From Propioniciclava flava (GTDB lineage Bacteria; Actinomycetota; Actinomycetes; Propionibacteriales; Propionibacteriaceae): 64,000 bases of DNA. Of this stretch, positions 6,300 through 61,464 are shown one piece after another. The position numbers and the translations under genes were made by a program. Location of the stretch: the NCBI RefSeq assembly GCF_004126535.1, contig NZ_PPCV01000003.1:62001-126000 (forward strand), given 5' to 3'. Every line of letters begins with the position of its first letter. The first letter of the stretch is position 1. The notes under the pieces are model-generated. The model searched no databases, was not told where the DNA came from, and saw only the letters and a list, made by a program, of their open reading frames with translations.

Positions 6300-7439
6300 A
6301 TGGGCGCAGGGCAGCGCGAGCAGACAACCACGATGACCGACGTCGTTGCACGGCTCGGCGAGTCGCTGGCCGACCTCACCGGGCCCACCTGTGACCGGAT
6401 CTACGCCCAACTCGACAGCTATGCCGCTATCGAGCCGACTGCCCTGGCCTCCGCGGTCGCCCGGAATCTCCGCACCGCACTGACCGCACTGCGGGAAGGA
6501 CGCGTCCCCGAGCCGACCAGCCTCGATGGTGCCGCCACGACCGCGCGGGAACGCTACGAGTCGGGAGTTCCGGTGGAGGAGATCGTGCGCGGCTTCCGCA
6601 TCTCCATCGCCCTCATTCAAGAAGAGTTCCTCGACATCGCCTCCTCGACGCGCCTCTCGGTCGAGGACACCGTTGCCGGGTCGCGCATCATGTGGGGCCT
6701 CGGCGACGCCTTCAGCACCCGGATCATCACCGAGTACCACCAACTCGCCCTGAACGCCGCCCTTCGCGATGCCCGCCTGCGTACCGCTGCCGTGCACCGC
6801 CTCCTCGCCGGGGAAGGACCCGACGCGTCCGCCCTGGTCCCCATCGACGCCCACGCCCCTTACGCCGCGGTCCGCTGCGCGGTAGCCAACCCCGCCGACG
6901 TGGAACGCGTCCGCGCCCACCTGGAGGCCACCGGCTCAACGACCAGCACCCGCGCCCTCGTCGCCGCCGACGGCGGGGTGTGTCTCGGCATCGTCGCCAC
7001 CGAACCGACCGACCCCGGGGTCGCCGTCGGCATCGGCCCCTTCGTCCCGCCCAAAGAGCTGCCCCGTTCCGACCGGGTCGCCCGCCAGGCGCTGCAACTC
7101 GCGGCCCGGCTCGGGCGCGACGGCGTCCAGGGCATCACGACGCTCGGCTGGCGGATGGCGGCCGCGTCACGGCCCGACGTGTGGCGGATGTACGCCGACC
7201 GGTTCCGTACCCCGCTGGAGGCCGAAGGCGAGTTCGGGGCCGAACTGCGCGCCGCCGTCCTGGCCTGGCTGGAGCACCAGCACAGCGTCAACAAGGCCGC
7301 CGCCGCGATCAACGTCCACGCCAACACGCTGCGCTACCGACTGCGCCGCTACGCCGACATCACCGGCTGCGATCTCGGTGATGTGGACGACCTGATGGGC
7401 GTCACCTGGGCGCTCGAACTGGACCACCCCGACCATTAG
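6300..7439 (+). CDS. PucR-family transcriptional regulator
   Basis: 379 residues from ATG 6300, preceded by GGGGGTGG; ATG 6333 (MTDVVARL) is an equally possible start. The last 60 residues are the PucR C-terminal helix-turn-helix: AWLEHQHSVNKAAAAINVHA followed by NTLRYRLRRYADITG. The N-terminal 170 residues look like the helical sensor (RsbRD-like) region and the middle a GGDEF-like CdaR domain. PucR/CdaR proteins activate catabolic operons in response to small metabolites. It is on the same strand as the ketone-body operon 190 bp downstream and is its likely regulator; the inverted repeat at 7452-7464 is a candidate site. Confidence 0.85.
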   Translation: MGAGQREQTTTMTDVVARLGESLADLTGPTCDRIYAQLDSYAAIEPTALASAVARNLRTALTALREGRVPEPTSLDGAATTARERYESGVPVEEIVRGFRISIALIQEEFLDIASSTRLSVEDTVAGSRIMWGLGDAFSTRIITEYHQLALNAALRDARLRTAAVHRLLAGEGPDASALVPIDAHAPYAAVRCAVANPADVERVRAHLEATGSTTSTRALVAADGGVCLGIVATEPTDPGVAVGIGPFVPPKELPRSDRVARQALQLAARLGRDGVQGITTLGWRMAAASRPDVWRMYADRFRTPLEAEGEFGAELRAAVLAWLEHQHSVNKAAAAINVHANTLRYRLRRYADITGCDLGDVDDLMGVTWALELDHPDH

Positions 7440-7451
7440 GACACCCCAGCA

Positions 7452-7464
7452 CTACACGTTGTAG
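7452..7464. promoter_or_regulatory. Inverted repeat CTACA-CGT-TGTAG upstream of the ketone-body operon
   Basis: A perfect 5+5 bp inverted repeat with a 3-base spacer lies 12 bases after the PucR gene and about 165 bp before the CoA-transferase start. The surrounding 7445-7500 is more A/T-rich than the coding flanks, as expected of a promoter. I could not place convincing -35/-10 boxes. Assigning it to the PucR protein is inference. Confidence 0.4.
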
Positions 7465-7629
7465 TTTCGTACAATCGCACGACGTAGAACGCTGGAGTTC
7501 CGTCCGTAGCCACGCGATCACCCGTTGTCTAGCGTGGACGCCAACACCGAAGTTGGAGATCCGAACGAAGACGTTCCGGCCAGCCTCGGCGTGATCCCAC
7601 GTGTATCACTCGCCAGAAAGGGCCATGTG

Positions 7630-8349
7630 ATGACCAAAGTCATCGATGACATCGCGCCCGCACTGAACGAGCACCTGCGTGATGGCATGACCATCGCTGT
7701 CGGTGGATTCGGGCTGTGCGGCATCCCCTCCGACCTGATTCGCGTCGTCCGCGACTCCGGCGTCAAGGACCTCACCATCGTGTCCAACAACCTGGGCGTC
7801 GACGGCAAGGGGCTGGGCCTCCTACTGGAGAACGATCAGATCACCAAGGTGCTGTCCAGCTACGTCGGTGAGAACAAGTTCTTCATGCAGCAGTACATCG
7901 ACGGCGCCATCGACGTCGAGTTCGTCCCGCAGGGCACCCTGGCCGAGCGGATGCGCGCGGGCGGGTCGGGTATCCCCGGCTTCTACACCCGCACCGGCGT
8001 CGGGACGCTGGTCGCCGAGGGCAAGCCGACCATGGACTTCGACGGGGAGACCTACATCCTCGAACGGGGCATCGTCGCCGACCTTGCCCTGGTGCACGCG
8101 CACACCGCCGACACCGACGGCAACCTCGTCTACCGGCTGACCGCGCGGAACTTCAACCCGCTGGCCGCCATGTGCGGCCAGGTGACCTTCGCCCAAGCCG
8201 AGCACATCGTCGCGCTCGGGGACATCAACCCCGACCACATCGTGACGCCGGGGGTTTACATCCACGCGGTGGCCCAGGCGGTCACCCCGACCGACATCGA
8301 ACAGCACACCGTCCGCCCGCGGCCGGTCACCGAGGAGGCCCTGGCATGA
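7630..8349 (+). CDS. scoA: 3-oxoacid CoA-transferase subunit A
   Basis: 239 residues from ATG 7630, chosen over an upstream GTG/ATG extension because [12 protein letters not shown] is the family start and AAAGGG lies 9 bases before it. The motif [14 protein letters not shown] is the CoA-transferase family I alpha signature, and the length matches alpha subunits. With subunit B it moves CoA from succinyl-CoA (or a similar donor) to acetoacetate. ATGA overlap joins it to subunit B. First gene of a five-gene catabolic operon running to 12387. Confidence 0.93.
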
Positions 8350-8984
8350 GCTGGACGCGCGACGAGATGGCCGCGATCGCGGCCTCCGAACTCCACGACG
8401 GCGACTACGTCAACCTCGGCATCGGCATGCCGACCCTGGTCGCCAACAACCTGCCCGAGGGCGTCCGGGTCGTGCTGCAAAGCGAGAACGGCATCCTCGG
8501 CATGGGCCCCTTCCCCTACGAGGGCGATGAGGACGCCGACCTGATCAACGCTGGCAAGCAGACCGTCACCTTGCTGCCGGGAGCGGTGATCTTCGATTCG
8601 GCCACCTCCTTCGGCATGATCCGCGGCGGCAAGATGGCTGCCGCCATCCTGGGCGCCATGCAGGTCGCGGGCAACGGCGACCTTGCCAACTGGCAGATCC
8701 CCGGCAAGCTCGTCAAGGGCATGGGCGGCGCCATGGATCTGGTTGCCGGCACCCGACGCGTCATCGTGATGACCGAGCACGTCGCCAAGGACGGCACACC
8801 CAAGATCGTCCACGAGTGCACCCTGCCGCTGACCGGCGTCGGTGTCGTGGACCGCATCATCACCGACCTGGCCGTGTTCGACGTCACACAGGACGGCCTC
8901 GTCCTGCGCGAACTGGCCCCCGGCGTCACCGAGGACGAGGTCCGAGCCAAGACGGAGCCGGCGTTCACCGCCGCGCTCGACTGA
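8346..8984 (+). CDS. scoB: 3-oxoacid CoA-transferase subunit B
   Basis: 212 residues from ATG 8346, which overlaps the subunit A stop by 4 bases. The catalytic glutamate motif [10 protein letters not shown] is present near residue 46, followed by [15 protein letters not shown] and the [15 protein letters not shown] region typical of beta subunits. The active-site glutamate carries CoA as a thioester during transfer to acetoacetate. Spacing to the permease is 13 bases. It forms the enzyme with scoA. Confidence 0.93.
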
Positions 8985-55144: not shown

Positions 55145-55747
55145 ATGCAGCACACGCACCTGGCCCTCCCCGCAGCCGCCCTGGCCGCCCTTCTCGCCCT
55201 CGCAGGCTGCACGACACCGGCCACCCCGCCCGCCGCGCCCGCGGCGAGCACCCAGGCGTCCGACGGCACCGGCAACGGCGTCCTGGCCTCGCTGGGGCTG
55301 ACCGGGCTCAGCGGTCCGCAGATCGTCGAAAAGCTGGACCACGACCCGGCCACGCGTCCGCTCCGGATGAAGGCGTCGGTGCGCCCCGACCGGGTGATCC
55401 TCGGCGACGGCACGGCCGAGACGTCCGTCCCGCTCGCCGGTGCGCAAGAGTTCTACCTGTCGATCGCCCCGTTCGTGAACCAAACGCACGACTGCTACTT
55501 CCACAGTCTGGCGACCTGCCAGGGCGAACTGCCCCGCGCCGCGGTGCACGTGACGATCACCGACTCCCACGGCGCGGCCCTCGTCGACACCGACGCGACC
55601 ACCTACGCCAACGGCTTCGTGGGGTTCTGGCTGCCCCGTGACATCAGCGGCACCGTCACGATCACCACCGACGGCAAGACAGGAAGCGTCCCGTTTGCCA
55701 CCGGCCCCCAGGACGCCACCTGTCTCACCACCTTGCGGGTCGCTTAG
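55145..55747 (+). CDS. cueP: CueP-family copper-binding lipoprotein
   Basis: 200 residues from ATG 55145. Lipobox LAGC with Cys22, Thr/Pro/Ala-rich linker, then the CueP domain: FYLSIAPFVNQTHDCYFHSL with Cys117, TCQGELP with Cys125, GFVGFWLPRDI and the C-terminal TCLTTLRV with Cys193. Three such cysteines bind copper in Salmonella CueP. It would sit outside the membrane and buffer copper. The CsoR-like box upstream agrees. Its stop overlaps the convergent carboxylase stop by 3-4 bases. Confidence 0.88.
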   Translation: MQHTHLALPAAALAALLALAGCTTPATPPAAPAASTQASDGTGNGVLASLGLTGLSGPQIVEKLDHDPATRPLRMKASVRPDRVILGDGTAETSVPLAGAQEFYLSIAPFVNQTHDCYFHSLATCQGELPRAAVHVTITDSHGAALVDTDATTYANGFVGFWLPRDISGTVTITTDGKTGSVPFATGPQDATCLTTLRVA

Positions 55748-58700
55748 CTCTCGCCGCCGCCCACCCGGGACGCGTAGGCCTCGATCACCTCGACGATCCC
55801 CGGACGCAACTGCGCCGGGGTGATGACGCGGTCGACCGAACCGACCTCGACCGCCCGGTGAATGCTGTGGACGGCGTCGAACTCGGCGGCCACCTCGGAG
55901 ATCTTCTCCGCACGCACCGCACCACGCGCTTCGGCCAACTCCAACTGGAGCGCAGCCCGGGTGTGCGCTGGCGCCTCCCGCAACTGAGCCTCCACCGAAG
56001 CCACCCGCGGGTCGGACGCTGTGCGCTTGGCGACGTCCCCGGCGAACACGACCGCAGCGGCAGGAGCCCCGCCCAGCACTGACGCGAACGAGCCTTCCAG
56101 CGCCAGCACCGTCATGTTCTCGTTGAGGCGCTTGGAGAACACCACGAACGCTCCCCCGTGATAGCGGGAGATGACGACGAACACGATGGGGCCAGAGAAG
56201 TTCACGATCGCCCGACCGATCTCGGCGCCGTACTCCAGTTGCAGGTTCCGCATCGATTCCGGTGACCCATCGAAGCCCGACAGGTTCGCCAAGACCACCA
56301 ACGGGCGGTTGCCGGACGCCGCATTGATCGCCCGCGCCGCCTTCTTCGACGACCGCGGGAACAGCGTGCCGCCCGTGTAAGTGTCGGGGCCGTCGGTGGG
56401 AGGGAACCCTTGACGCGGCACCGGCTGGGACTCGATGCCCAGCACGCACACCGCGTGCCCGCCGATGCGGGCGTCCATGACGACGGCGGTCTCGGCGTCC
56501 GCCATGCCCGCCCAGCGTTCTACCCGGGGGTGATCCGCGTCACACACGGCCGCGATCACGGTACGGATGTCGAACGGCTTCTTGCGGTCGGGGTTCTTCT
56601 CCGCGGAGAAGATCTCCCCGACGGTACGAAACTCCGAGCCCTCGATCTGGTGGGGGTAGGCCGAGACGTCACGGTCGACCGGGTCGGTGGTGAGGGCGCG
56701 GCGCGGCGCGCGCTCCCCGGGCGCGATGTAGCTGTGCGCGTAGTGACTCATGAGGATCCGCATCGCTGCACCCAGGTTCGGTGCCCAATACTGCGCCTGC
56801 CCGTTGGGGCCCATGACCCGGTCGTAGCCGCCGATGCCGAAGTTGTCTTCGGCGGAGACGCCACCGGAGAAGTCGAGGGACTGCTTGCCGGTGAGGACCA
56901 TCGCCGAGTCGGGCGTCATCACGAGGATGCCCTTGGTGTGCATGAGCATGGTCGCTTCGGCGTTCCAGTAGGGCTGGGCGCCGACGTTGATGCCCGCGAC
57001 GACGACGTTGATCTCGTAGCCGTCTTGGGTGAACGAGACGATGCGGCGCAGCGCAGCGGCTACCCAGTCCATGTTCTCGGTTCCCGACTGCATCGACACC
57101 CGAGCCCCCGACGACAACGCGAACCACTCCACGGGCAGCCCGCGTTCCTGCGCCAGGTCGAGGGCGGCGATGATGCGGCGGCATTCGGGTTCGGACAGCG
57201 CACCCAGGCCCTTGGTGGGGTCACCGGACAAGGCGATCCGGGTGATGCCCTCGGGGTACAGGTCCGTCGGGGTCGTCACCTCGGCGACGATGATCCCTGC
57301 CGTGTTGTTGCCGGGAGCACGATCCACAGGGACGAGGCGCCCCTCGGCGTCCAGGTCGAGTTCGGTGAGCGTGCCACCGTGACCAGCCAGGGAACGCGAC
57401 AGCTCGTAGGGGTACACCAGCCCGCGCCGACGGGCACGCAGCACCTTGGTGGCGTAGTCATCCAGCGGTTGGAGAGGTTCGGTCGGCGGCGCCCCGATGG
57501 ACGCCGTGACGCCCGCGCCCGGCACGTTGTGGAACCGCACCGCCACCGGGACGGTGCCGTCCGGGGAGGCGTAGCGGCCCTGGCACAGCACCTCCTCGAT
57601 CCCCGCCCCATCAGAGAGCGGGGTGATCTTGGTCTGCAGGGCGGCGACCTCGTCCAGGCCGACATCGAACTCGGGCCACACGTGAACCCAGACATAGTTC
57701 ATGTCGAGTTTGCTGCCTGCCTGACCGCGCTCGGCGCGGGTGCGACGGATCGCTTCGAGCCCGTTCTCGACGGCACGCTCGGCATGCGGCAAGCCGAGGA
57801 GGCGCCCCTCGGCGTCCCGGACGACCGCCAACTGCCGCACCTGCGCCATCGCGACGAGGCGGCGATCCTCCGGGTTCGTGCGGGCCACGCACTCGAACAG
57901 CACCACATCCTCGGGGGCGGGCAGCCGGGTGAGGTGGAACTCGCGCAACCGCCACAGATCCAGGCGCCGTGCCAGCATGGCGTGCATGCCGCGCATGTTC
58001 TCGTCCTCGGCGAACCCGCCGGACGCGTCGGGACGGAAGGAGCGGTACTCGACCCCGCCGTCGGGGGTGCAGATCCCGACGAGCACGCGGCGCACGCCCG
58101 AGCCCCAATCCCAGGTCGCCAGCGTGGCCTCCAGGTCGATCGACACCGATGCGGCGTCCACCCCGGCGGGCCAGGCCACATACAGTTCCACGACCGCCTC
58201 GGCACCGGGGCGTCGACGGGCGAGTTCCGCGGTGACGATCCGGGCCAGCGGGCCCTCAGCCGCCAGTTCGTCGCTGCTGCCCAGCGTCGACACGAACCGG
58301 GTGGGACGCCCCTCGATCTCGTAGTTCGCGGTCAGGACGGCCCGGCCGTCCACCTGCGTGGCAGTCACGTCGGCCAAACCGAAGTCCGCGTAGTACTTGC
58401 GCAGCAGCACCTCCAGCATGGGCTCGTGCGCGCTCACCCCGTGACGGGCCAGCCGGTCGGCGAGGAAGCTCGCCGTCCACTCAGGAATGGCGGCCAGCGC
58501 CAGGATCCGGGGGGCATAGTCGGGCGCGTCCGGGTGAGCGGCCAGGTCAGCCACCTCGTCCGCGACGCCAGCCAGCACCGCCGCACGCTCGGCGTCCACC
58601 TGCGGCTGGTCGAACCAGCGGAACCGCACGGAACGCGCCACATCGCCCACGGCGGGGAACCGGAGCTGGGTGGCCCGCACCAGACGTTCCAGATGCGCGC

Positions 58701-61248
58701 GCGCCGAATCGGCCAGCCCTGCGCTCGGCGCGGGCTCCCCGATCCAGCGGTCCAGGATCCGCAGCACGATGGGCAGATCGTCGGCGCCGCGCTTTTGCGC
58801 CAAGAAGATCCGGAAGACGGCCTCATCGAGGGCGGGCGTCCGGTCGAGACTGTCGACGCCGTAGTGAGCCAGCACGGTGCGCAGCCGCTCCTGGAACTGC
58901 TCGGGCAGCCCAGCACGGTCGGCGTCCAAGGTCGTCAGGTAGCGGTGGAAATGCTCACGGTCGGAGTGGACGCGCAACTCGGTGTTGACCTGCTCGCCGA
59001 GGGGGCGGTTGCGGTTGAGGGCGGCCAGGTCCGCGAACAGGCCGATCAGGGCGATCTCACCGGGCAGGACGTCTCCCCCCGCCGCACGCACCTCGTCGCG
59101 GGCGGCCAGGTAGGCCTCGAGGGTGTTGGCCTGCGGCGTGACGTCGTAGCCCATCAGCGTCGCCGAGAGGTCGGCACGGAGCCGATCGGCGCGCGCGGAC
59201 GCGTCCGCATCCGGTGTGAGGGCGGGCAATTCGACGGTGGTCGCGTCCGAGGATTCCTCCGCACCCCCCTCGCTGAGGGGTTCGAGGCGGACCAGCGGCG
59301 CCATCGTCTCGACCTGCGAGCCGGTCATCACGAGTAGTTCCTTGACGCGAGCGTCGAACGGCGCGGCGATGACGCTTTCCATCTTCATGGATTCCAGCAC
59401 CACGACCGGAGCGCCCGCGGACACCTCGTCGCCGACCGCGACGGGCGTGGCCACCACCAGCGCCGGTGCCGGGGAGCGCAGGACGCCGCCCTCGTCACGG
59501 GAGACGCGGTGCATCACGTTGTTGACCTCGATGAGGTGAACGGGGCCGTGCGTCGCCGACACGATCCGGTACTGGATGCCGTTGACCCGCAGCCGCCCAT
59601 GGACGTCGTCGAGGCGTTGCACCTCGACGCGCGCCAGGTGGCCGTCCACCTCGACGGTGAAGCGTCCCGGGCCCGTCGCGTAGGCCGTGACGCGGTGGGC
59701 TGAGCCGCGCAGCTTCAAGTCGACGCTCACCCCGTCGGTGTGCTGCGTCTGCGGGCGCCCGCCGTGAGCGGTCTCCAGGAGACGCTCGGATTCGACGGCC
59801 GCAGCGTCCTCGTAGGCCTCGATGGCGGCGGCGACCAGCGCCACGCCCGCGTGCGCGTCGGGAACCAGCCCGCCCTGCGCGCGAACGCGATCGATCCACC
59901 CCGTGTCAGCCCAGGCCACGCCGGGGGCACCGACGACCTCGGGCCGGTCCAGCAGTTCCAGCACGAAACTCTTGTTGGTGGCGCCCCCGTCAATGACGAC
60001 GGTGGTCTCCGACAGGGCACGCCGCAGGCGGCCCAGTGCCTCGTCGCGGGTGCGTCCGTAGGCGATGATCTTGGCGATCATCGAGTCGAAGTCGGCGGGG
60101 ATCGCGTCCCCCTCGGCGACGCCGGTGTCGACGCGAATGCCGGGCCCAGCAGGCAGATCGAGCCGGGTGATGAGCCCGGGGGCGGGCGCGAAGTCACGGT
60201 CGGGATCCTCGGCGTTGAGCCGCGCCTCGACCGCGTGCCCGAACTCTTGTGGCCGGTCGGCCAGCGGCTGGCCCGAAGCGATGGCGATCTGGGCCTTGAC
60301 CAGGTCGAACTCGTTGGTGACTTCGGTGATCGGGTGCTCGACTTGTAGCCGGGTGTTGACCTCAAGGAAGGCGAACAGTTCGTCGGCGGGGTGGTAGAGG
60401 AACTCGACGGTGCCCGCGCCGCGGTAGTCCACGGCGAGCGCGAGCCGTTCTGCGGACGCCTTGAGGTCGGCCACCTGGTCGGGGCGCAGCAGCGGGGACG
60501 CCGACTCCTCGATGATCTTTTGATTGCGGCGCTGGACGCTGCAATCCCGCACCCCGAGCGCCCACGCGTGGCCTTGCCCGTCGGCGATGATCTGCACTTC
60601 GACGTGGCGCGCCCCCGTGACGAGCTTCTCCAAGAAGACGACCCCGGACCCGAACGCGCGCTGGGCTTCGTCGCGGGTCCGCTGGTAGGCGTCGGTCAGG
60701 TCGCCGGGCCCGTCGACGCGGCGGATGCCGCGCCCGCCGCCACCGGCGGTGGCCTTCAGCATGAGGGGGTAGCCGATCTGTGCGGCAGCGTCCAGGGCGG
60801 CGTCCAGGGTGTCGACGCCGCCGCGCGACCAGGGTGCCACCGGGACGCCCACCTCTTCGGCGATGAGCTTGGAGCCGATCTTGTCGCCGAGTTTGCGCAT
60901 GGCGTCCCCGGAGGGCCCGATGAAGGTGATCCCGAGGGATTCGACGAGGTCGGCGAACTCCGCGTCCTCAGCGACGAACCCCCAGCCGACCCACACGGCG
61001 TCGGCGCGCGCGTCGCGCAGGACGCGTGCCAGCAGCGCATGGTCGAGGTAGGGCCGGGCGGACGCGGGCCCGAGCGGGTAGGCCTCGTCGGCTTCGCGGG
61101 CGAACATGGCGGAGCGTTCGGCGTCGGTGTAGAGCGCGATGGTGGTGATGGGGTCCGCGTCGCGACGTTCGGCGTTGAGATCCCGCACCGCATGGATGAG
61201 CCTCATGGCGGCCTCGCCTCGGTTGACGATGGCGATGCGCTGGAACAC
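55744..61248 (-). CDS. Single-chain biotin-dependent acyl-CoA carboxylase (BC-BCCP-CT)
   Basis: 1,834 residues from GTG 61248 (GGAGGCCCC upstream). Biotin carboxylase about 1-460 (IAIVNRGEAAMRLIHAVRDL, KATAGGGGRGIRRV, FLEVNTRLQVEHPITEVTNE). Biotinyl domain with Lys622 in LESMKMES. A central 600-residue region without recognised enzymes (about 690-1250). Carboxyltransferase about 1260-1834, with SMQSGTENMDW, GKQSLDFSGGVSAEDNFGIG and NLSGFDGSPESM. The order is that of eukaryotic acetyl-CoA carboxylase; bacteria normally use separate subunits. Product likely malonyl-CoA or another carboxyacyl-CoA; substrate length not readable. Confidence 0.9.
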   Translation of the reverse strand: MFQRIAIVNRGEAAMRLIHAVRDLNAERRDADPITTIALYTDAERSAMFAREADEAYPLGPASARPYLDHALLARVLRDARADAVWVGWGFVAEDAEFADLVESLGITFIGPSGDAMRKLGDKIGSKLIAEEVGVPVAPWSRGGVDTLDAALDAAAQIGYPLMLKATAGGGGRGIRRVDGPGDLTDAYQRTRDEAQRAFGSGVVFLEKLVTGARHVEVQIIADGQGHAWALGVRDCSVQRRNQKIIEESASPLLRPDQVADLKASAERLALAVDYRGAGTVEFLYHPADELFAFLEVNTRLQVEHPITEVTNEFDLVKAQIAIASGQPLADRPQEFGHAVEARLNAEDPDRDFAPAPGLITRLDLPAGPGIRVDTGVAEGDAIPADFDSMIAKIIAYGRTRDEALGRLRRALSETTVVIDGGATNKSFVLELLDRPEVVGAPGVAWADTGWIDRVRAQGGLVPDAHAGVALVAAAIEAYEDAAAVESERLLETAHGGRPQTQHTDGVSVDLKLRGSAHRVTAYATGPGRFTVEVDGHLARVEVQRLDDVHGRLRVNGIQYRIVSATHGPVHLIEVNNVMHRVSRDEGGVLRSPAPALVVATPVAVGDEVSAGAPVVVLESMKMESVIAAPFDARVKELLVMTGSQVETMAPLVRLEPLSEGGAEESSDATTVELPALTPDADASARADRLRADLSATLMGYDVTPQANTLEAYLAARDEVRAAGGDVLPGEIALIGLFADLAALNRNRPLGEQVNTELRVHSDREHFHRYLTTLDADRAGLPEQFQERLRTVLAHYGVDSLDRTPALDEAVFRIFLAQKRGADDLPIVLRILDRWIGEPAPSAGLADSARAHLERLVRATQLRFPAVGDVARSVRFRWFDQPQVDAERAAVLAGVADEVADLAAHPDAPDYAPRILALAAIPEWTASFLADRLARHGVSAHEPMLEVLLRKYYADFGLADVTATQVDGRAVLTANYEIEGRPTRFVSTLGSSDELAAEGPLARIVTAELARRRPGAEAVVELYVAWPAGVDAASVSIDLEATLATWDWGSGVRRVLVGICTPDGGVEYRSFRPDASGGFAEDENMRGMHAMLARRLDLWRLREFHLTRLPAPEDVVLFECVARTNPEDRRLVAMAQVRQLAVVRDAEGRLLGLPHAERAVENGLEAIRRTRAERGQAGSKLDMNYVWVHVWPEFDVGLDEVAALQTKITPLSDGAGIEEVLCQGRYASPDGTVPVAVRFHNVPGAGVTASIGAPPTEPLQPLDDYATKVLRARRRGLVYPYELSRSLAGHGGTLTELDLDAEGRLVPVDRAPGNNTAGIIVAEVTTPTDLYPEGITRIALSGDPTKGLGALSEPECRRIIAALDLAQERGLPVEWFALSSGARVSMQSGTENMDWVAAALRRIVSFTQDGYEINVVVAGINVGAQPYWNAEATMLMHTKGILVMTPDSAMVLTGKQSLDFSGGVSAEDNFGIGGYDRVMGPNGQAQYWAPNLGAAMRILMSHYAHSYIAPGERAPRRALTTDPVDRDVSAYPHQIEGSEFRTVGEIFSAEKNPDRKKPFDIRTVIAAVCDADHPRVERWAGMADAETAVVMDARIGGHAVCVLGIESQPVPRQGFPPTDGPDTYTGGTLFPRSSKKAARAINAASGNRPLVVLANLSGFDGSPESMRNLQLEYGAEIGRAIVNFSGPIVFVVISRYHGGAFVVFSKRLNENMTVLALEGSFASVLGGAPAAAVVFAGDVAKRTASDPRVASVEAQLREAPAHTRAALQLELAEARGAVRAEKISEVAAEFDAVHSIHRAVEVGSVDRVITPAQLRPGIVEVIEAYASRVGGGES

Positions 61249-61464
61249 GGGGCCTCCTTGATGCGACGACGCTCCCGGATGCGGGCGCGTCGAGACGCTC
61301 CCGCGTGGGGCTGGGGACGAATCTTCCACCGAATCTTGACGGTGGCGAGTCGGCACGACGCCCTGTCGGCGCACTTTCGGGAATCAACGGCGCGCGGCCC
61401 AACACCGCTCGGCGAAGTTTGTAGAGACCCCACAAAGTGGTTTGAGGGCCGCCTGTGGCGCATC

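Follow-up and report, generated by a model that had tools for sequence, protein, structure and literature searches.

How a bacterium comes to encode an acyl-CoA carboxylase with the domain order of the eukaryotic acetyl-CoA carboxylase (ACC), and whether this order reflects shared ancestry or convergent fusion, is the question raised by a gene in a 64,000-nucleotide stretch of the Propioniciclava flava genome (contig NZ_PPCV01000003.1, positions 62,001 to 126,000; hereafter the window). The minus-strand frame at 55744-61374 comprises 1,876 open residues, or 1,834 residues from a GTG codon at 61248, and this start is backed by the Saccharopolyspora soli homolog (L074), which aligns from residue 1, and by the forward primer published for SACE_4237 (see below). 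Pfam domains of the translated protein were, in order, Biotin_carb_N (1-117), CPSase_L_D2 (122-330), Biotin_carb_C (341-453), Biotin_lipoyl (590-655), ACC_central (1050-1205; E 9e-10, above the cut-off), and Carboxyl_trans (1334-1827). An earlier reading of the DNA letters without database searches (the sequence-only reading) had described biotin carboxylase (BC), biotinyl and carboxyltransferase (CT) domains in one 1,834-residue chain, and both the open frame and the Pfam order agree with this, including a central stretch of about 600 residues (approximately 657-1260). Its designation of a eukaryote-like single-chain acyl-CoA carboxylase appears well founded on architecture and homology. With high confidence we regard the window protein as an ortholog of the homodimeric multidomain acyl-CoA carboxylases of the SACE_4237 family and as a full-length homolog of eukaryotic ACC.

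The catalytic residues of BC and the biotin site are kept. The window protein retains K123, K165, E207, H215, K244, E282, E296, N298, R300, E304, and R351, eleven positions that we take to be the catalytic residues of the E. coli enzyme; among 107 aligned rows (the window protein and 106 homologs), R351 was conserved in 101 and each of the other ten in 106 or more, and the biotin motif E-[SA]-M-K-M-E was present in all 107. NCBIfam models matched best to the BC part only, and none among 25 of the 47 matches reached its curated cut-off.

The central region was compared with known proteins by profile and by structure. A profile built from the central regions of 43 diverse members (window residues 657-1334, with the first CT residues included) retrieved eukaryotic ACC from the PDB with a best E-value of 1.9e-23 (5i6h) and with 1.8e-20 for the yeast enzyme (5csk), and the only sequence other than ACC among the 23 at E≤1 was a kinesin-like chain at 0.012. 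PF08326 (ACC_central) matched all 43 members of the profile. The AlphaFold model of the region (678 residues, pLDDT 88, pTM 0.83) is helical up to approximately residue 300 and then forms two α/β units, a layout that agrees with the yeast central domain as described in the available part of PMC4833862, where CDN, CDL, CDC1, and CDC2 lie between the biotin carboxyl carrier (BCCP) domain and CT.

Foldseek matches of this model at E≤0.001 were eukaryotic ACC in all 31 cases, with a moderate best whole-model TM-score of 0.55. With VIA-align (one row per entry, 50 entries shown), 15 ACC entries had Z-scores of 24.9-30.9, and the best chain that was not an ACC reached 8.6. The 12 best entries (Z 28.7-30.9) included ten that start no later than residue 24 of the model and reach at least residue 608, together with 5cs4 and 5trc, which are AC3-AC5 fragments aligned at 231-612; three further long ACC entries had Z-scores of 24.9-26.5 and two C-terminal ACC fragments 19.2-19.7. 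Representative alignments were those of 8xl1_A (Z 30.9, root-mean-square deviation (rmsd) 4.8, 501 aligned residues), 5csk_B (Z 29.4, rmsd 5.7, 570 aligned), and 5cs4_A (Z 29.7, rmsd 3.5, 354 aligned). Within these 50 entries ACC was the sole family to stand out for the central domain, and rows with Z≤8.6 were not taken as kin. On this model the central region of the window protein is predicted to have the eukaryotic ACC fold over approximately residues 16-678 of the model. The structural comparison proposed in the sequence-only reading thus came out in favor of a match to the central domains of yeast and other ACCs, and the suggestion that this region might be a new structural module is not supported, as the region corresponds to the established central domain of ACC (PF08326; VIA-align Z 25-31). 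An unrelated central module is disfavored by fold, profile, and trees together.

Eukaryotic ACCs (yeast 5csk and 5csl, Chaetomium 5i6i, human 8xkz) share the domain order and the central fold with the window protein, and their BT and BCCP domains can be aligned with it. The full-length eukaryotic chains are longer, at 2,211-2,407 residues versus 1,834, and unlike them the window protein has no N-terminal extension before BC; its family also lacks the long central insertion of the yeast enzyme (5csk from approximately residue 1164). The central domain of yeast ACC carries a phosphoregulatory loop with Ser1157.

Phylogenies of the two catalytic domains were built from window-protein homologs, eukaryotic ACC, and conventional carboxylases. 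The BC tree had 44 rows (22 of the family, two fungal ACCs from yeast and Chaetomium, and 20 conventional) and the CT tree 41 (15 of the family, two eukaryotic rows from yeast and bovine pieces, and 24 conventional). Family rows were the window protein and every second (BC) or third (CT) member of a 42-row diverse subset of the 106 full-length homologs, L151 with its disabled BC (see below) among them. Conventional rows came from the window genome and from five genomes with multidomain enzymes that we chose (G267, G129, G657, G619, and G361), with rows from E. coli and Pseudomonas aeruginosa added to the BC tree; the conventional BC rows were AccA, E. coli AccC, MCC-like, PC-like, and LCC-like sequences, most of them named from frame length and similarity. 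Overlapping gene copies, carbamoyl-phosphate-synthase-like matches, and matches without a locus were left out, as were same-genome paralogs (BC: L183, L187, L196, L200, L204, and L230; CT: L174, L179, L183, L184, L187, and L198). The Chaetomium BC row is limited to the first 354 columns.

In the unrooted BC tree, the 22 family rows and both fungal ACCs fell on one side of a branch and the conventional rows on the other (support 99/97), and in the unrooted CT tree the 15 family rows joined yeast and bovine ACC apart from the 24 conventional rows (100/100). When the fungal BC sequences were constrained to join, in turn, four conventional groups, which were named after the tree had been seen, the approximately unbiased (AU) test gave p-values of 0.006, 0.0165, 0.0137, and 0.0115. 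Short motifs in BC followed the same division. W-x-G-W-G was present in 22/22 family and 2/2 fungal rows and in 0/20 conventional rows, with PGYG showing the reverse pattern (0/22, 0/2, and 20/20). Two other motifs were less clean: G-D-K-I occurred in 20/22 family, 2/2 fungal, and 6/20 conventional rows, and T-G-W-x-D in 19/22 family rows, one of the two fungal rows (the Chaetomium row stops short), and none of the 20 conventional rows.

Shared ancestry with eukaryotic ACC is favored by these comparisons of sequences and models over convergent fusion, because the fold of the central region is that of ACC, BC and CT both group with eukaryotic ACC, and W-x-G-W-G is common to the two. Several observations weigh against this view and should be kept in mind. 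By raw profile score the family BC is nearer to ordinary BC than to the BC of eukaryotic ACC; the trees are unrooted, their eukaryotes are limited to fungi and cattle, the eukaryotic branches are long, and composition was flagged for both fungi in the BC alignment and for yeast in the CT alignment. For the CT tree, the program also issued a warning about the meeting of two long branches of conventional rows, L189 and L192. Among the structural matches, several high-Z VIA alignments had rmsd values of 10 to 17.5 (8xl2_C, 5i6e, 5i6i_A, and 5i6h_A), the extreme being 5i6e with Z 29.4 yet rmsd 17.5. Hinge movements between the ACC central subdomains have been described (PMC4833862, available in part), and in our judgment the moderate TM-scores and large rmsd values of the model would fit such movement.

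That AccA-like and AccB-like subunits fused independently in actinobacteria, with the central region an unrelated spacer, gains some plausibility from other one-chain acyl-CoA carboxylases, namely the bacterial LCC (PMC6491548, available in part) and AccADCB (PDB 9kkm), whose existence means that fusion of carboxylase subunits recurs. This explanation nevertheless appears highly implausible given the eukaryotic ACC fold and significant sequence homology of the central region, the grouping of both BC and CT with eukaryotic ACC and not with conventional rows (AU p 0.006-0.0165), and the W-x-G-W-G motif in 24/24 family and fungal rows versus 0/20 conventional. Of the two origins that the sequence-only reading had left side by side, it is thus shared ancestry that gained support and convergent fusion that lost it; where that reading would have given up a common origin for a central fold unrelated to eukaryotic ACC and catalytic domains nested within ordinary bacterial subunits, we found the opposite, on unrooted trees. 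A recent transfer from a eukaryote into actinobacteria would also produce homology to eukaryotic ACC, and our survey was confined to Actinomycetota and 14 control genomes. It is very unlikely, however, since the family is diverse within Actinomycetota, with identities of intact members to the window protein going down to 48-49% along the full chain, is present in 20 genomes outside the window's class in the phylum sample, and in each tree stands as a single clade separate from both eukaryotic rows. An ancient transfer, into or out of eukaryotes, may be compatible with so few eukaryotic rows.

The comparison with other bacterial enzymes of the same chemistry is instructive. LCC (4rcn) resembles the window protein in having BC, BCCP, and CT in one chain, but it lacks the central domain that the window protein has (PMC4833862, in part) and is a hexamer preferring long chains (PMC6491548, in part); LCC-like frames, named from their length, are shorter (1,084 and 1,127 residues) and fall among the conventional rows on both trees, whereas the window CT goes with eukaryotic ACC. 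The two-subunit enzymes AccA with AccB or PccB catalyze the same chemistry and give the same carboxylated products, with BC-BCCP and CT on separate chains in contrast to the single 1,834-residue frame. As a separate observation, the AccADCB chain 9kkm_A is a one-chain ACC of 1,517 residues in which the BC part was matched at 949-1393, indicating a different domain order.

The evolutionary proposal is not new. In the available portions of Livieri et al. 2019 (PMC6491548), SACE_4237 of Saccharopolyspora erythraea is presented as the first prokaryotic homodimeric multidomain ACC, a dimer of approximately 400 kDa with subunits of about 200 kDa, and the same evolutionary idea is put forward together with enzymology. 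There, CT groups with eukaryotic ACC with 100% bootstrap support, the central region is conserved, and an actinobacterial ancestor is proposed. Such actinobacterial enzymes have accordingly been in print since 2019, and the window protein is a further example of the published family. It shares with that family the BC-BCCP-central-CT order, the chain of about 200 kDa, the conserved central region, and the grouping of BC and CT with eukaryotic ACC; no architectural difference was found between them. SACE_4237 itself is represented in our comparison by same-genus relatives and by its published primers. Saccharopolyspora homologs are 63-64% identical to the window protein, L074 of S. soli at 64% (1,170/1,837 columns, end to end). 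The forward primer for SACE_4237 encodes MFSRVAI, and 20 of its 23 bases match L074 and a second homolog (L085) exactly at the first codon; the reverse primer matched neither gene end of these two, with a best match of 15/23 bases elsewhere.

The nearest named homologs, among the 80 loci listed, were in Tessaracoccus (77% identity), followed by other Propionibacteriaceae, a family absent from the eight that Livieri et al. list as examples in the portions available (PMC6491548). Identities among the 80 loci extended down to 61% and included Nocardioides, Kribbella, Saccharopolyspora, Amycolatopsis, Micromonospora, and others. The window architecture is not a product of chance, because 77 of these 80 loci match almost end to end, from residue 4 or earlier to residue 1,819 or later, the three partial ones being L038, L062, and L106. 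In sampled genomes, PF08326 was detected in 49/118 of the window's family, 75/394 of its class, 29/396 of the phylum, and 0/14 controls. These frequencies are in line with the sequence-only statement that most actinobacteria lack the single-chain enzyme.

For the function of the window protein we infer activity, substrates, dimeric state, and cellular role by analogy with SACE_4237. In the proposed mechanism, BC would carboxylate the K622-bound biotin with bicarbonate and ATP, the BCCP domain would swing to CT, and CT would pass the carboxyl group to acetyl-CoA (and also to propionyl-CoA), yielding malonyl-CoA for fatty acid synthesis. The central domain would be a scaffold without catalytic function of its own, holding BC and BCCP in position with respect to CT within the dimer. 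In the parts of PMC6491548 available, SACE_4237 has a kcat/Km of 0.85 per s per mM for acetyl-CoA versus 0.52 for propionyl-CoA, with a lower Km for propionyl-CoA, and activity on palmitoyl-CoA is given as not detected; the gene is essential as the provider of malonyl-CoA, and its loss halts fatty acid synthesis, which oleic acid rescues, in a species that also has AccB-type subunits. Complementation of a temperature-sensitive E. coli accB strain has likewise been carried out with SACE_4237. By this analogy the window protein very likely supplies malonyl-CoA and perhaps also methylmalonyl-CoA.

The other carboxylases of the window genome (3.0 Mb, 26 contigs), which has five CT and two BC domains, complicate this assignment. 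Contig C23 carries an ordinary AccB-AccA pair and C24 (L161, 75000-90000) a 517-residue fused CT of AccD-AccA type at approximately 6962-8512 on the minus strand, so the window gene need not be the sole source of malonyl-CoA, and 69/118 sampled genomes of its family have no PF08326 match, both points that count against too exclusive a role. On C19 (L159, 138000-154000) a CT adjoins 5S-type and biotinyl transcarboxylase-like frames, presumably the set expected of an organism with a Wood-Werkman cycle, and on C21 another CT has decarboxylase-like neighbors, all of these being named from reading of the frames. Methylmalonyl-CoA may thus be a central metabolite in this organism, and one could suppose that the window enzyme mainly carboxylates propionyl-CoA or feeds secondary metabolism, and that malonyl-CoA comes from AccA/AccB or AccDA. 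The lower Km of SACE_4237 for propionyl-CoA and the many relatives without PF08326 would suit such a division of labor; we consider it unlikely in view of the higher kcat/Km for acetyl-CoA and the arrest of fatty acid synthesis in S. erythraea despite its AccB-type subunits (PMC6491548, in part). PF03255 was considered as an indicator of a competing AccDA and rejected, as it cross-matches ordinary CT chains and occurs in 116/118 genomes of the family; meaning can be attached only to the strong matches (E of 3e-38 or better, the next being 4e-14), which occur in 20 genomes. Of these, 17 also have the multidomain ACC, versus 49/118 overall (Fisher p 2e-5, not corrected for relatedness), which gives no indication that AccDA takes the place of the multidomain enzyme. 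The window gene would therefore be a strong, though not the sole, candidate for acetyl-CoA carboxylation, a reading favored because S. erythraea likewise has other carboxylases.

A second form of the enzyme was found in another family of Actinomycetota (f56), of another class than that of the window, in which 19/35 genomes carry the PF08326 domain. Seven sequences (L149, L151, L254, L258, L259, L262, and L265), from seven genomes (G698, G706, G766, G768, G764, G763, and G758), have a disabled BC: they lack approximately 70 residues between window positions 138 and 213, the ATP-grasp lid, and share replacements at seven further catalytic positions (K123 to P or R, E282T, E296R, N298S, R300G, E304G, and R351A), although residue 351 is likewise variable among some of the intact sequences. 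All seven retain the biotin lysine and GAR, the first motif on the oxyanion side of CT, and the later CT glycines are kept in the five that are not cut by contig ends (L262 and L265 are). In window columns 657-1441 the seven form one clade (100/100) apart from 14 intact f56 rows. Their BC remnants are evolving under constraint and are not decaying, because mean identity (75% among disabled versus 74% among 12 intact sequences, ten from f56 and two from f87) and dN/dS (0.09-0.12 in three disabled pairs versus 0.13 and 0.19 in two intact pairs) resemble those of intact copies. A model of the L258 BC and BT domains (529 residues, pLDDT 85.5, from seven disabled and 11 intact rows) matches BC-containing carboxylases.

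Intact and disabled copies occur together in three genomes: G766 (L253 and L254), G768 (L257 and L258), and G763 (L261 and L262). G764 and G765 each have two copies, one of them fragmentary, and in G706, G698, and G758, whose assemblies are 61-88% complete, only the disabled copy was found. The assemblies from which the paralogs come are split into 130 to 530 contigs. We tentatively suggest that the disabled paralog might be an ATP-independent partner chain that takes a carboxyl group made in trans or tunes the intact enzyme in a heteromer. Neither a disabled-BC ACC paralog nor such a heteromer was found in the titles and abstract openings of the open-licence literature on inactive BC.

Two further variants were seen. 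L143 (G560:C141:9000-17500) is a 1,418-residue frame with BT, BCCP, central, and CT domains, and no BC was detectable in the 8.5 kb examined; L267 (G729:C228) is a second multidomain ACC copy with the biotin site MKQ for MKM, its 5' end cut by the contig.

Coordinates of the carboxylase gene, its domains, and its predicted subdomains in the window are collected in Table 1.

Table 1. Features of the multidomain acyl-CoA carboxylase gene in the P. flava window.
Feature	Position	Strand	Residues and basis
Multidomain acyl-CoA carboxylase gene	55744..61248	-	1,834 aa; GTG start; stop 55744-55746
Biotin carboxylase (BC) domain	59884..61248	-	1-455; Pfam, tree
BT-like linker domain	59494..59883	-	456-585; limits set by us; profile 327-708 vs yeast 5csk 423-805
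Biotin carboxyl carrier (BCCP) domain	59281..59493	-	586-656; Pfam, motif
Biotin lysine K622	59383-59385	-	within BCCP
ACC central domain	57469..59280	-	657-1260; end set by us; profile, model, structure matches
CDN-like helical subdomain (putative)	58573..59202	-	~683-892; our limits from model secondary structure
CDL-like helical linker (putative)	58381..58572	-	~893-956; our limits; 5cs4 (yeast ACC AC3-AC5) aligns to model 231-612
CDC1-like α/β subdomain (putative)	57940..58380	-	~957-1103; our limits; model and structure matches
CDC2-like α/β subdomain (putative)	57469..57939	-	~1104-1260; our limits; overlaps most of Pfam ACC_central 1050-1205
Carboxyltransferase (CT) domain	55747..57468	-	~1261-1834; Pfam, tree

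The genes flanking the carboxylase encode a CueP-like copper protein, a pfkB kinase, a GntR/FCD regulator, a TspO/MBR protein, and a hydroxyisobutyrate-dehydrogenase-like protein. Counterparts of these frames were found at no more than 2/80 named loci (flanks no longer than 6 kb, in some cases less), and they gave no functional clue. The gene for the CueP-family copper-binding protein (55154-55747, plus strand, putative start) lies tail to tail with the carboxylase gene, with a four-base overlap of the frames that includes both stops.

A bacterial family with the full eukaryotic ACC architecture opens the origin of that enzyme to testing and provides simpler models for the workings of its central domain, a point already made by Livieri et al. 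2019. What is added here is the fold-level evidence, a host family beyond the examples given there, a wider spread in the phylum, and the clade of disabled-BC paralogs, which could reveal non-catalytic roles of the BC domain.

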